From NCBI GenBank assembly GCA_947165045.1, contig CAMUYW010000007.1:1-64000 (forward strand): DNA of 64,000 bases. Direction: 5' to 3'. Every line of letters starts with the position of its first letter. The first letter of the stretch is position 1. Below the pieces are notes generated by a model. The model searched no databases, was not told the origin of the DNA, and saw nothing but the letters and a program-made list of their open reading frames with translations. Shown piece after piece: positions 50,938 to 57,628 of the stretch. The position numbers and the translations under genes are program-made. Origin of the DNA: an uncultured Fibrobacter sp. Lineage in GTDB: Bacteria > Fibrobacterota > Fibrobacteria > Fibrobacterales > Fibrobacteraceae.

Positions 50938-51678
50938 TTAGAATTTCAACTTTACGAAAGACTCGTAGTGATCGCTGGTATAATAAATGTTGCAGCCACT
51001 AGCATAAACTAAACGTCTGGGACCTCGGTTCGTTTCGAAATAGTCCACGTCAGCTTCGCGGTAATCGCCTTGAGGCAAGCGTCCATCGCGGTTGCTGAAA
51101 CGATCGCCCCCAATCATCACGCCAAGCGTTCTTTGCGGATTAAAATTCCAACGCTCTAAACGTTTTCCCGTCTTGGATTCGTACATGCGAATGCCTTCAT
51201 TTTTGTTCACATAGTTCGGTGGCAAATAGCCATTTTCGCAAATAAACCGAGCTACTTCATCTTTCGACGTGTATTGAGAAGCGTTCACATTCGTTTGCGT
51301 TGCGGTCGATTGAGGCTGTTGAGAAGACGAACCCAGTTTGCCGACAAGGGTATAAGTGCCAGCGATTAAGGCAAGAACAACGCACAAAACTCTCATGAAA
51401 TTGCGCACAGGCCGTTGCTTGCGTGGCCGAGCAAAATGCGTTTGGCGGGGCATATTTTCAAGAGTAGGAACGCCGTCAAGCAAGCCACTTTCAATTCGCG
51501 GCCCTTTTTCGCCTTTTCCAAATGTATTCACGACAATCGTATCACCCACGCGCGGAGAACGAGACGGACGTCCCAGCGCACTCACATGCACAAAATACTT
51601 GACTCCGTTTGCCGTCGCAAAACCGAATCCCTTTTCATTATTCCACTGAATTATTGTCGCTTTGTTTGTAATAGTCAT
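50938..51678 (-). CDS. cold-shock domain / transmembrane / barnase-type ribonuclease fusion
   Basis: A 246-residue protein. Residues about 6-70 are a cold-shock domain: ATIIQWNNEKGFGFA carries RNP-1 and YFVHVSALG carries RNP-2. A basic stretch (PRKQRPVRNF) precedes one transmembrane helix at about 96-117 (VLCVVLALIAGTYTLVG). The C-terminal 105 residues match barnase: LPPNYVNKNE, GGDRFSNRDGRLP, YREADVDY with the general-base Glu, RRLVYASG with the catalytic Arg, and TSDHYESF with the His. The order and the residues fit an active guanyl-specific RNase. With basic residues on the cytoplasmic side, the RNase should face the periplasm. I start at 51678 (MTITNKA). No barstar-like gene was seen nearby. 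Confidence 0.88.
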   Translation of the reverse strand: MTITNKATIIQWNNEKGFGFATANGVKYFVHVSALGRPSRSPRVGDTIVVNTFGKGEKGPRIESGLLDGVPTLENMPRQTHFARPRKQRPVRNFMRVLCVVLALIAGTYTLVGKLGSSSQQPQSTATQTNVNASQYTSKDEVARFICENGYLPPNYVNKNEGIRMYESKTGKRLERWNFNPQRTLGVMIGGDRFSNRDGRLPQGDYREADVDYFETNRGPRRLVYASGCNIYYTSDHYESFVKLKF

Positions 51679-51764: not shown

Positions 51765-51909
51765 ATTGCAAAGTAGCATTTTAAGGGGTAAAAAAAGGAT
51801 TGAAAAGTAGCATTTTAGACCACAAAACAGGGTTGAAAAGTAGCATTTTCTATTGCCAAAACGGATTGAAAAGTGTATTTTTAAGGATAGAAAAGGTATT
51901 GAAAAGTAG
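51765..51909. repeat. array of five phased direct repeats
   Basis: The unit ATTGAAAAGTAGCATTTT starts at 51765 (one change), 51799, 51832 (one change), 51865 (GTGT in place of GTAGC) and 51898 (first 12 bases only). Spacing is 34, 33, 33 and 33 bases, close to three helical turns. The array fills the gap between the divergent cold-shock/barnase gene and the ATPase gene and ends 38 bases before the ATPase start. Phased A-tracts could bend DNA or offer repeated protein sites. Confidence 0.85.
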
Positions 51910-51947: not shown

Positions 51948-53255
51948 ATGCTTTACCGAAAGATACAAGAACGGATTGATGAATACTTTTCCAACGGCTC
52001 CAACAAGGTGCTGGTTATCGATGGCGCCCGCCAGATAGGAAAATCGTTCATTATCCGCTACATGGGGAAAAAACATTTTCGCAACTACATCGAATTAAAC
52101 CTTCTAGAAGACACACTCAACAAGCGCCTTTTTGCAGACATTCAAAACACCGAAGACTTCTACCTGCGCCTCAGCATGTTCGCTGGCGATAAAATGGGCG
52201 ATAACAAAAACACACTCGTATTCCTCGACGAAATCCAGGAATGCCCGCGCCTACTTACCCTGCTCAAATTTTTAAAGCAAGAAGACCGATTCACTTACAT
52301 AGCCAGCGGCTCGCTCCTCGGCGTAGCCTTATCAAAGACATCATCCATCCCGATGGGGAGCATTGAAACGGTACACATGTACCCGCTAGATTTCGAAGAA
52401 TTTCTACTCGCTAATGGATTCAACGAATTCGCCATCAGCGGATTGAAAAATCGATTTTTGAGCAAACAGGCACTTGACAACGCAATGCATGAAAAGGTGA
52501 TGGACCTCTTCAAAAAATTTCTGCTTGTCGGTGGCATGCCGGATGCAGTGAACATGTACGTTCAAGAAAAAAACATCGTCAAAATTCGCAAAATCCAAGA
52601 CGACATTCACAAGTTTTACGCAGCAGACGCAAGCAAATACGACGATCAAAACAGGTTAAAAATTCGCAAAATTTATGACTTAATCCCGTCGATGATGGAG
52701 AACAAGAAAAAGCGACTTGTCGCCAACAAAATCGAGTCCAAAAAAAACAAACTCGATAAATACGAGGACGAATTCGAATACCTGACCAATGCAGGTGTGG
52801 CGTTGGAAGTTTCTGCGATTACAGATGTCAAATTTCCGCTAGTACAATCAACAACTAAGAATCTGTTAAAGCTATACCTCAATGATGTCGGAATTTTAAC
52901 AGGAATCCTTTACGGTAACAACATAAACGCCGTAATGGGAGACATCCCTAGCATAAATCTCGGAGCCGTATACGAAACGGTCGTTGCAAGCGAATTGAAT
53001 GCACATGGGAAAAAGCTGTACTACTACGACAATCGCCTAAAAGGTGAAGTCGACTTTTTAATTGATGATTACGACTCTCTATCCGTCATCCCAATTGAAG
53101 TCAAGTCCGGTCGTGATTTCAAAATTCACAGTGCACTCAACAATCTGCAAAAAACGGGCAGTGTTCAAACAGGGATAGTTCTTTCAAACAGCGCTGAAAT
53201 AATACAAAAGGAAAACACGTTGTATTTGCCAGTGTACTTCGTGATGTTCTTGTGA
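51948..53255 (+). CDS. AAA ATPase with DUF4143 domain
   Basis: A 435-residue protein. Walker A GARQIGKS is near residue 26 and Walker B VFLDEIQECP near residue 90; TYIASGSLLG matches sensor 1 of this AAA-like family. The second half is DUF4143, with GAVYETVVASEL and a nuclease-like end (KGEVDFLIDDYDSLSVIPIEVKSGRDF: Asp, Glu-x-Lys). Families of this type are numerous in Fibrobacter and other anaerobes, usually of unknown biological role; some are thought to act on DNA. It is preceded by the phased repeats and converges on the minus-strand cluster, with a three-base gap between stops. Confidence 0.9.
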   Translation: MLYRKIQERIDEYFSNGSNKVLVIDGARQIGKSFIIRYMGKKHFRNYIELNLLEDTLNKRLFADIQNTEDFYLRLSMFAGDKMGDNKNTLVFLDEIQECPRLLTLLKFLKQEDRFTYIASGSLLGVALSKTSSIPMGSIETVHMYPLDFEEFLLANGFNEFAISGLKNRFLSKQALDNAMHEKVMDLFKKFLLVGGMPDAVNMYVQEKNIVKIRKIQDDIHKFYAADASKYDDQNRLKIRKIYDLIPSMMENKKKRLVANKIESKKNKLDKYEDEFEYLTNAGVALEVSAITDVKFPLVQSTTKNLLKLYLNDVGILTGILYGNNINAVMGDIPSINLGAVYETVVASELNAHGKKLYYYDNRLKGEVDFLIDDYDSLSVIPIEVKSGRDFKIHSALNNLQKTGSVQTGIVLSNSAEIIQKENTLYLPVYFVMFL

Positions 53256-54644: not shown

Positions 54645-56000
54645 TTATCTGTACTGTCTCACATGTTTTAAAATACACTTATCAGCAGTGTATGAGCCAA
54701 GAGTCACGCCTCGCCCGATACAACTTGCTGCAAAAGCATTTCCCTTTTGCATTTTTTCTATAGATTCAGCTTGCTGATGGGAAAAAGTTAGTACCATAGA
54801 CTTAATTTCTTTTTGATAACCATCAGGCAACAGAGACATTCCATCAAGTTTTACTTCATATTCTCCAAACATGTTCTTCTTCACGGAGCCAACCTGAGCA
54901 ATTATGCTAAATCTTCTATTTTCAAATCGTTTTCGATCTGCAATTGAATTATTCCTGTACACATCCACAATTTCATTCCAGTACACATGACCACCATAAT
55001 CTTTTAGTCTCGAGTCACGAATGTCAGAGAACAAATTCGAACAACAATGCAAAATATCTATAACACAAGCAGCAATTATTACACCACGAAAAACGGCTTT
55101 AATTTCCCTACAAGGTTTATTACCGAAAAATTTTTTGGCAAACATATTGAAAATATCTATAGTCACCCATATTCCCAAAACCAATACAATCAAAGAAGAA
55201 AAAACGTAAAGATCTTTACGCATTGCAATAAGCAACGTAAAAACAAGAATAAGTTTTACAATTCCAAATACAGTTTTTCCCCAAATAAAATCATGAACAC
55301 CAATTCGTCCAAATAAAAAAGCAACTACGGAGGCTTTTGTTATGCTAATTTTCCCATCATTTTCAAGTTCTTCGTTTTCAACTTCTTCAGCAAAAGGATT
55401 TGCAATTTGTTTAGAAACCTTAAAGTCTACATTCTTTTCAATTTTATTTTCATTTTGAGGAACATCCTTAATCTTTGGGAGTTCACTTTCTTTTGATTTG
55501 ACATTTTGTGATATCGTTTTTGAGGCCGTATTTTTTGCGTTATCATTTTCGCACCCCCGCAATTGTCTAAACACATTTTCCATGCTTCGGGTTGTATTCA
55601 CCATAGCATTTTCAATCGTAATAATTCCTTTGTCCAAAACAATTACTAATTGTCCAAGAGCTTTATTTTGCGAAGCCACCATACCGGAGACTTTTCCTAC
55701 AGCAAAACTCTTTACAATAGGAGACGATTTAGGATTGGATGCATTTATCAGGATAATCCGTTCTGTACTCAAAACAACAAGCCAAGATTCTTTGCCGAGA
55801 CTCGTTATTTTTCCATCTACAGAAAGATGAACAGTTCCCGCAGTAAATCCCAAAACAATTTCATCTTTTTTTAGAGCACTTTTCAATAAGGGAAATTCAT
55901 TTTTTGTCCAAAAATAATCGTATTCCACACCATTCAGAGAACAAATTCCCTGCCAGTCAGCATTCAACGTTCTTATCTTGTATTCAGCAAGCATTAACAT
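54645..56000 (-). CDS. membrane protein with PH-like, TM2-like and OB-like regions
   Basis: A 451-residue protein. Residues about 42-150 look like a bacterial PH domain (EIVLGFTAGTVHLSVDGK, SWLVVLSTERIILINA). A charged linker (about 155-220) leads to a TM2-like pair of helices (AFLFGRIGVHDFIWGKTVFGIVKLILVF), then a third hydrophobic segment and a C-terminal region (RFENRRFSIIAQVGSVKKNMFGEYEVKLDG) of the OB/tRNA-anti type often found with TM2 and zinc-ribbon domains. Such modular sets occur in bacterial stress and defence membrane proteins. The function is unknown. It is AT-rich and sits in the NERD-led cluster. Confidence 0.65.
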   Translation of the reverse strand: MLMLAEYKIRTLNADWQGICSLNGVEYDYFWTKNEFPLLKSALKKDEIVLGFTAGTVHLSVDGKITSLGKESWLVVLSTERIILINASNPKSSPIVKSFAVGKVSGMVASQNKALGQLVIVLDKGIITIENAMVNTTRSMENVFRQLRGCENDNAKNTASKTISQNVKSKESELPKIKDVPQNENKIEKNVDFKVSKQIANPFAEEVENEELENDGKISITKASVVAFLFGRIGVHDFIWGKTVFGIVKLILVFTLLIAMRKDLYVFSSLIVLVLGIWVTIDIFNMFAKKFFGNKPCREIKAVFRGVIIAACVIDILHCCSNLFSDIRDSRLKDYGGHVYWNEIVDVYRNNSIADRKRFENRRFSIIAQVGSVKKNMFGEYEVKLDGMSLLPDGYQKEIKSMVLTFSHQQAESIEKMQKGNAFAASCIGRGVTLGSYTADKCILKHVRQYR

Positions 56001-56042: not shown

Positions 56043-56630
56043 CTACCGACTTTCTTGTATTACAATTTTACCGGAGCCACTTTCATTAATAATAATTCCA
56101 GAAGCCTCGCCATTTTGAATCTTTTTAGCGCGATTTTCGCTTACATAATTGAATGAGCCTCGAATATTTAGAACACCTTGTGTTGGCGTAAACTCAAACT
56201 CGCCCTTCTGCTTACGAAATTCAAAACCTGTACGATTAAACCAATACAACCGAGGCAATAATTCAGAAGATTTCCATTCACTCCATTTTTCGCCCACATT
56301 CCGAGTACGATAAGAATTTCCCTCAACCCAAATTGTTCCTTTAACCTCAATACCATTTAATCTATCCGCTTGAGAATAGACTTTCTGCTGAATGTAATTC
56401 ACACGGCATTGGTCAATTTCATATTCAATATCAGCATTGCGAGTTATTTCTATATAATAGCACCGTTTATTTTTGGCAACGATTTTATCACCATACATTT
56501 TATCTAACGTTCTCGCAAGAGTCTCACCATACTTGTCCTTAACTTGCAACAGAAAAGGCTGATACTGCAAATCATAGGAGAAAGCTGATACGCATAAAAA
56601 GGAAAGGAGTATTATAAAAACATCTTTCAT
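56043..56630 (-). CDS. exported protein of unknown function
   Basis: A 195-residue protein with a signal peptide (IILLSFLCVSAFS, cut near residue 18). The mature part is beta-rich with aromatic residues (CYYIEITRNADIEYEIDQCR, EKWSEWKSSELLPRLYWFNR), has a disulfide-capable cysteine pair, and a glycine/isoleucine tail. No family is recognised. Its ATG overlaps the NERD gene stop (ATGA), so the two are likely to act together. Confidence 0.65.
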   Translation of the reverse strand: MKDVFIILLSFLCVSAFSYDLQYQPFLLQVKDKYGETLARTLDKMYGDKIVAKNKRCYYIEITRNADIEYEIDQCRVNYIQQKVYSQADRLNGIEVKGTIWVEGNSYRTRNVGEKWSEWKSSELLPRLYWFNRTGFEFRKQKGEFEFTPTQGVLNIRGSFNYVSENRAKKIQNGEASGIIINESGSGKIVIQESR

Positions 56631-57628
56631 ACATCCTCTCTATACCAGCACTTCGGGAATCCAGAGCATCCCCAAAACTGATTTCCAAAATTTTCGCCTT
56701 TCTTCGCAGTTCTCAAAACAAGAAGTTTACCACATTTAGGACATACTTTTTCTGTAGATACAGATTCCTTTTGAGAGAATTTTTCTTTTGGATCAGCCTC
56801 TTTTTTCGAGCACAATTTTTCCAGACGTTTTTCGTTTTGAGGTTCAACCTTATTTGCATTTAACTCAGCAAGTAAGTCTTCATATTTCTTTGCATAATCC
56901 GATTTATTTGGTTTACTACACTTAATAAACGAATCTAACAATTCATGCATATCTTTTTCTGAAGATTTTAACGAATCATCCTGATCTTCAATTTTTTTGA
57001 TATAGGCAACAAGCTGATCCAAACGAATGACGACTTTACGAACTTCTTCTGGAGCTTTAGTGTCATTCAGAATTGTCTTTGGATTCGCCAAAACCACTAT
57101 AGAGCGGTATGTTTGCGGGAACAACTTATCAAACAAGCCCTGCATCACAAAATTATTTTTGTATTCCCGACGAATTTCTTTAAGTATATTCAAATGCCTT
57201 TCGTTTTGAGAAACCGGAGAAGGAAATCCTTCTTTTCGTTCAAACTTACCAGACCCCTTATGACGAATAAAGTTTCCCTTTTCATCAATTTCAATATTTC
57301 CGTAAAGGTTTTTGCACTCTATAACAAAAATATGCTTTCTTGCAATCACTAAAAAATCAATCTGAGCCGACAGACCATTCTTTTCCAAATAAAGGTCATG
57401 TACAACAAGCATATCCATGCCACTATTTTTCAGTTCAAAAGCAATTTGTTTTTCGCCTTTTAAACCAGCCTCAGCAATAGTAATTTGCTCATCAATCTTA
57501 TCTTTGAGTTTTCCAGAAGCTCTTAATGAAAGCGACTTCATCTTTTCAATAAAGGATTCTGCATCACTATCTTCCTTAATGAAAACTGGACCAAAATATT
57601 TGAAAAACAAAGCATCAATAATACCCAT
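56627..57628 (-). CDS. NERD-domain nuclease-like protein with C-terminal topoisomerase zinc finger
   Basis: A 333-residue protein. The NERD domain spans about residues 52-170, with QIDFLVIARKHIFVIECKNLYGNIEI supplying the Asp and Glu-x-Lys of the PD-(D/E)XK type. A helical linker rich in lysine and glutamate follows, and the protein ends with CPKCGKLLVLRTAKKG and CSGFPKCWYRE, a four-cysteine topoisomerase-type zinc finger that binds single-stranded DNA. NERD proteins are usually linked to DNA processing or defence. It is the first gene of an AT-rich four-gene cluster. Confidence 0.85.
   Translation of the reverse strand: MGIIDALFFKYFGPVFIKEDSDAESFIEKMKSLSLRASGKLKDKIDEQITIAEAGLKGEKQIAFELKNSGMDMLVVHDLYLEKNGLSAQIDFLVIARKHIFVIECKNLYGNIEIDEKGNFIRHKGSGKFERKEGFPSPVSQNERHLNILKEIRREYKNNFVMQGLFDKLFPQTYRSIVVLANPKTILNDTKAPEEVRKVVIRLDQLVAYIKKIEDQDDSLKSSEKDMHELLDSFIKCSKPNKSDYAKKYEDLLAELNANKVEPQNEKRLEKLCSKKEADPKEKFSQKESVSTEKVCPKCGKLLVLRTAKKGENFGNQFWGCSGFPKCWYREDV

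Follow-up and report, generated by a model that had tools for sequence, protein, structure and literature searches.

A cold-shock-like domain and a barnase domain joined by one membrane helix in Fibrobacter

Described relatives and layout of the gene

Membrane proteins with an N-terminal cold-shock domain (CSD) have been described before. A 2015 count of the CSP-Excalibur architecture gave 301 proteins, nearly all of them proteobacterial (PMC4679880), and CSD-DUF1294 proteins are likewise known. For these proteins, referred to here as CSD-TM-X (X being Excalibur or DUF1294), no assigned function was found in the literature. A sequence-only reading knew of no described system combining a CSD, a transmembrane (TM) helix and a barnase domain. 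In our literature search no paper joining CSD and barnase in one protein was found, but the layout of CSD, TM helix and outer domain is published (PMC4679880) and also occurs in Fibrobacter itself.

The window, the whole analysed stretch of 64,000 nucleotides, derives from a rumen-type Fibrobacter with an 87%-complete genome. The open reading frame starts with ATG and has the same limits as in the sequence-only reading (Table 1). Pfam, PDB, AlphaFold2 and Foldseek agree on the three parts proposed there for this one gene. In the AlphaFold2 model, calculated from 11 relatives, an OB-fold (6-67) and one long helix (92-115) are followed by a disordered linker, variable among relatives, and by the barnase domain, mostly with pLDDT >90. 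Chance or an assembly artefact is excluded, as the arrangement recurs in 21 genomes.

Table 1 Features of the CSD-TM-barnase locus and of related proteins (window positions unless a contig is named)
Feature	Position	Strand	Basis
CSD-TM-barnase gene, 246 aa plus stop	50938..51678	-	ORF and homologues
Cold-shock (OB-fold) domain, residues 5-70	51469..51666	-	PF00313 sub-threshold; AlphaFold2 and Foldseek to CspA/CspB; conserved
Basic stretch ARPRKQRPVRNFMR, residues 83-96, before/into membrane helix	51391..51432	-	positive-inside signal
Single transmembrane helix, residues 92-115	51334..51405	-	AlphaFold2 helix, hydropathy
Barnase domain, residues 136-245, predicted extracytoplasmic	50944..51273	-	PF00545, PDB, Foldseek
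Catalytic Glu208 (= barnase Glu73)	51055..51057	-	alignment to barnase
Arg222 (= barnase Arg87)	51013..51015	-	alignment to barnase
Catalytic His237 (= barnase His102)	50968..50970	-	alignment to barnase
Cys147, predicted disulfide partner	51238..51240	-	cysteine pair in 77 Fibrobacterota barnases, in no Firmicutes one
Cys229, predicted disulfide partner	50992..50994	-	cysteine pair in 77 Fibrobacterota barnases, in no Firmicutes one
Tandem array	51765..51909		4.4 copies of a 33-bp unit
AAA_14/DUF4143 ATPase gene	51948..53255		PADLOC PDC-S01 candidate match, 9e-170
PH-like/TM2-like membrane protein	54645..56000		no Pfam match
NERD plus zinc-ribbon protein	56627..57628		
Fibrobacter CSD-TM-Excalibur proteins	L205 3665-4285, L206 3251-3850, L207 3665-4225		CSD specifically related to that of CSD-barnase

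The enzyme domain passed the curated Pfam threshold of PF00545 (E=1.4e-12, 48.4 bits against a cut-off of 24), and binase and barnase were the nearest solved structures (PDB search, E=8e-14). The good structural match of the full model to barnase (Foldseek, E=4.6e-10, target TM 0.82-0.85) indicates the barnase fold. In the alignment Lys27, Glu73, Arg83, Arg87 and His102 of barnase correspond to K159, E208, R218, R222 and H237; the catalytic Glu, Arg and His are in place, as read before from the letters. The guanine-loop residues N196 and R197 are present at the positions of Asn58 and Arg59, and Y238 aligns to Tyr103. The first five residues, N196 and R197 are invariant or nearly so across 11 relatives. 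Compared with barnase, the loop following residue 42 (barnase numbering) carries an insertion of six residues. The domain is complete and is predicted to be an active, guanyl-preferring RNase.

The N-terminal domain is a real but divergent CSD-like domain. Its match to PF00313 (E=0.005, 17.1 bits) lies under the Pfam cut-off of 27, and annotation pipelines using this cut-off would therefore probably name the ribonuclease alone. Folded alone with AlphaFold2, it gave a five-stranded OB fold (pLDDT 89) with the RNP motifs KGFGFA and YFVHV already noted in the sequence-only reading, and the model matched CspA, CspB and YB-1 (Foldseek, E about 1e-4, TM 0.73-0.78). The aromatic surface is partly kept: W12, F18, F20, F29 and H31 are found in the alignment, of which W12, F20 and H31 are invariant among relatives. 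The Phe12 of CspA, following the conserved Trp, is missing and CspA Phe34 is replaced by Val. With two aromatic positions of CspA lost and a Pfam score below threshold, nucleic-acid binding by this domain is not assured. As a side observation, no canonical stand-alone cold-shock protein above the Pfam cut-off was detected in the 87%-complete genome.

Topology, cysteine pair and barstar

Hydropathy revealed one hydrophobic helix in each of 25 CSD- or TM-type proteins, and in all 25 the net positive charge before the helix exceeds that after it. From this single helix and the charge bias an N-in/C-out topology is predicted, with the CSD in the cytoplasm and the barnase domain in the periplasm, in accordance with the sequence-only reading. 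It is further supported by a lineage-specific cysteine pair and by the lack of barstar.

Cys147 and Cys229 are both present in 77 barnases of Fibrobacterota, whichever anchor these carry and lipoproteins included, and the pair occurs in none of the Firmicutes barnases compared. Four lipoproteins of the same phylum (L004, L011, L047 and L058) are without either cysteine. The two residues align to Gln15 and Trp94 of barnase. Trp94 of barnase is packed onto one end of helix 1; a disulfide between Cys147 and Cys229 is thus plausible and is predicted here. An oxidised pair would fit an enzyme of the periplasm or the extracellular space, since these are oxidising compartments. In the same direction, related barnases of the genus are lipoproteins, and those of rumen Firmicutes have signal- or TM-like N-termini.

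The absence of barstar, first noted for the surroundings of the gene, extends to the own genome, where a profile search with PF01337 found none. Among 168 Fibrobacterota genomes none had barstar except for one match in a genome with 8% contamination.

Family, scaffold and neighbourhood

Barnase domains were found in 73 of the 168 Fibrobacterota genomes. By open-frame reading they fall into two main types, the lipoproteins, which are the majority, and CSD-TM-barnase, with 22 proteins in 21 genomes from three genera. Fifteen of these 21 genomes carry a lipoprotein barnase too. Three further proteins (L030, L035 and L045) have the helix and the enzyme without a CSD, their N-terminus being simply lysine-rich. 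The enzyme domains were placed in a maximum-likelihood tree, which has few columns and many weak forks and was read at the level of its large groups only. One branch (support 91/90) separates every CSD and TM-only protein from the rest, with the lipoproteins in another clade and the Firmicutes outside. As the TM-only proteins nest inside the CSD-barnase clade, one fusion followed by loss of the CSD is the simplest history, and the CSD appears dispensable for export. Outside Fibrobacteraceae no CSD-barnase was detected among the best 80 of 562 relatives on GTDB contigs, a scan in which rarer cases may be missed. In one genome (G083; L091, 1998-2345) a CSD runs in one reading frame into the final third of a barnase, without TM helix and catalytic Glu; this is either a deletion or an assembly collapse.

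Between relatives, dN/dS was 0.03-0.14 for the CSD, 0.04-0.11 for the enzyme and up to 0.47 for the linkers. Both domains had a mean pairwise identity of 0.76, compared with 0.42 in the TM helix and 0.35 and 0.22 in the two linkers. Purifying selection on the CSD is as strong as on the enzyme. Thus, leaving aside the lineage from which it was lost, the CSD is maintained and is no relic. These values bear on the proposal that the CSD is a mere cytoplasmic plug inherited from the scaffold, anchoring and orienting the helix after nucleic-acid binding had been lost. The two lost aromatic positions, the low Pfam score and the replacement of the CSD by a lysine-rich N-terminus in the nested TM-only group would suit such a plug, but the selection on the domain and its three invariant residues speak against it, and we consider it rather unlikely. 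The same data concern regulation across the membrane, in which the CSD would sense cytoplasmic RNA or temperature and control the outer RNase, or the reverse. Two conserved nucleic-acid-related domains are set on either side of one helix with an invariant Cys99. The poorly conserved linkers, however, do not favour mechanical coupling and the CSD can be lost, which makes a regulator improbable.

A search with the isolated CSD recovered the barnase proteins and three proteins of the same genus with CSD, TM helix and Excalibur (Table 1), whose CSDs match the barnase-type CSD profile at 1e-32. Full-length homologues of this Excalibur type are located on plasmids of Aeromonas, Aliivibrio, Vibrio and Thiodictyon. 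In another genus of Fibrobacteraceae, the search detected a CSD-DUF1294 protein (L214). CSD-barnase shares the make-up of the scaffold, with an N-terminal CSD, a basic stretch, one TM helix and a predicted extracytoplasmic C-terminal domain. Pfam detected no Excalibur (PF05901) in it and PF00545 stands in its place. As the same CSD-TM module is joined to Excalibur within the genus and CSP-Excalibur is published, the protein is a known CSD-TM scaffold in which a barnase of the secreted type has taken the place of the outer domain; within the range of the searches, this was seen in Fibrobacteraceae only. Six short CSD-TM proteins of about 120-140 aa (L208, L209, L211, L212, L213 and L219), with eroded RNP motifs and no outer domain, were also observed; they may be remnants or form a small-protein family of their own.

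The CSD-barnase gene appears to be monocistronic, with neighbours that differ between genomes. In many relatives the surroundings are metabolic, with an adjoining gene (c4) that is ilvC-like by sequence, and no conserved nucleotide uptake genes were seen beside CSD-barnase. Two small co-directional neighbours, c16 and c17, were rejected as immunity partners, each being present in just three of 20 loci.

The sequence-only reading had also offered attack on competitors; neither an immunity gene nor a delivery module nor a conserved neighbourhood was found in support of it. The barnase would have to be freed by proteolysis after the TM helix and enter neighbouring cells. Barnase is a recurrent polymorphic-toxin domain, listed for Fibrobacteres too (PMC3482391), and the disordered, variable linker behind the helix would allow for such a release. 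Against this, the protein is small and fixed in the inner membrane, it has no secretion, PAAR or RHS-type delivery module of a polymorphic or contact-dependent toxin, and its C-terminal domain shows no diversification within the clade. Use as a weapon is therefore highly improbable.

Next to the gene and divergent from it lies an AAA_14/DUF4143 ATPase gene (Table 1), the sole DUF4143 gene of the genome. A 94% identical copy is divergent beside a much less similar CSD-barnase in another genome (G120, L229), and genes of this type lie within 2 kb of CSD-barnase in four of 21 cases, including G074 and G080. This proximity was noticed post hoc and may reflect shared variable islands or a functional link. 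Together with the toxicity of the enzyme class, the PDC-S01 candidate could point to a self-directed or phage-triggered RNase, acting in the cytoplasm or entering it on membrane damage, where the CSD would bring the barnase to RNA (abortive infection or a death switch). The charge bias and the cysteine pair point outward, however, the CSD-barnase protein itself had no PADLOC match, which led to rejection of defence-system membership, and neither barstar nor a conserved partner gene accompanies it in its often metabolic setting. This makes a death switch very unlikely. Phage origin was rejected, as no match was found in phage records and none for the CSD in IMG/VR.

Between the two genes lies the tandem array, whose TTGAAAAGTAGCATTTT core has no other site in the own genome. 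With one genomic locus and a similar run in just one relative, the repeat was rejected as a family feature. An upstream RNA regulator or thermosensor was also rejected; there was no Rfam match, and the 5' regions are unconserved across the family. Two further genes of the window were observed (Table 1). In G152 (L227) a relative of the PH-like/TM2-like protein is encoded 23 bp upstream of CSD-barnase, and in G134 (L224) relatives of both are found near CSD-barnase.

Proposed role and comparison with known systems

The explanation we prefer, with a probability of roughly 0.55, is an RNase anchored in the inner membrane and acting in the periplasm for clearance or scavenging of RNA, with a cytoplasmic CSD binding nucleic acid, perhaps the protein's own mRNA or those of membrane proteins. 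A type II (N-in, C-out) single-pass protein would display a guanyl-preferring RNase of the barnase type in the periplasm. The cell would be protected by export itself, so that no barstar would be needed. The substrate would most likely be RNA entering the periplasm or freed by lysed cells, used for nucleotide or phosphate scavenging or simply cleared, alongside the lipoprotein barnase of most of these genomes. Scavenging was already suggested in the sequence-only reading and is plausible; scavenging or clearance would be the simplest role.

The CSD would most likely bind single-stranded nucleic acid, plausibly U-rich mRNA of membrane proteins, the protein's own included, which would bring synthesis of a dangerous enzyme to the membrane that receives it. 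In E. coli, CspE and CspC bind U-rich transcripts that encode membrane proteins (PMC4520561), and by this precedent mRNA binding at the membrane is a reasonable idea for the CSD. A stronger form, in which two nucleic-acid activities are coupled across the inner membrane, is unlikely in our view. Here the barnase would trim RNA arriving in the periplasm and single strands would be captured by the CSD inside; alternatively, the CSD would hold the protein's own mRNA at the membrane and thereby confine synthesis of a toxic RNase to the site of export. If true, such coupling or mRNA holding would be, to our knowledge, the first function assigned to a CSD-TM-X protein.

An assayable outer enzyme on a member of this group offers a handle on the role of the cytoplasmic cold-shock half. 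CSD-TM-barnase also shows how a Gram-negative bacterium can carry a barnase while lacking barstar. Two exported barnases on different anchors are the rule in the genomes with CSD-barnase, and that rumen Fibrobacter keep both hints at RNA as a genuine substrate of these fibre degraders.

Compared with barnase and binase, which are N1/T1-type secreted bacterial RNases (PF00545), the Fibrobacter domain has the fold, the catalytic residues and the predicted extracytoplasmic action in common. Barnase is released from the cell and has barstar as its partner, whereas the Fibrobacter domain is attached to a CSD-TM module and lacks barstar; the cysteine pair and the six-residue loop insertion are its own features. 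The nearest relatives of the enzyme domain are the Fibrobacter lipoprotein barnases (L002 and about 50 others). They have the same cysteine pair, but a lipobox signal peptide in place of the CSD-TM module, and form a separate clade. CSD-DUF1294 proteins also have a CSD followed by membrane helices, but these are several, the CSD is canonical and no exported enzyme is present. In the CSD-TM-Excalibur proteins the outer domain is Excalibur, putatively Ca-binding, and no RNase. Their architecture is otherwise the same, and Aliivibrio CED57953.1 and Thiodictyon WP_100922978.1 likewise consist of an N-terminal CSD, a basic stretch, one TM helix and an extracytoplasmic C-terminal domain.
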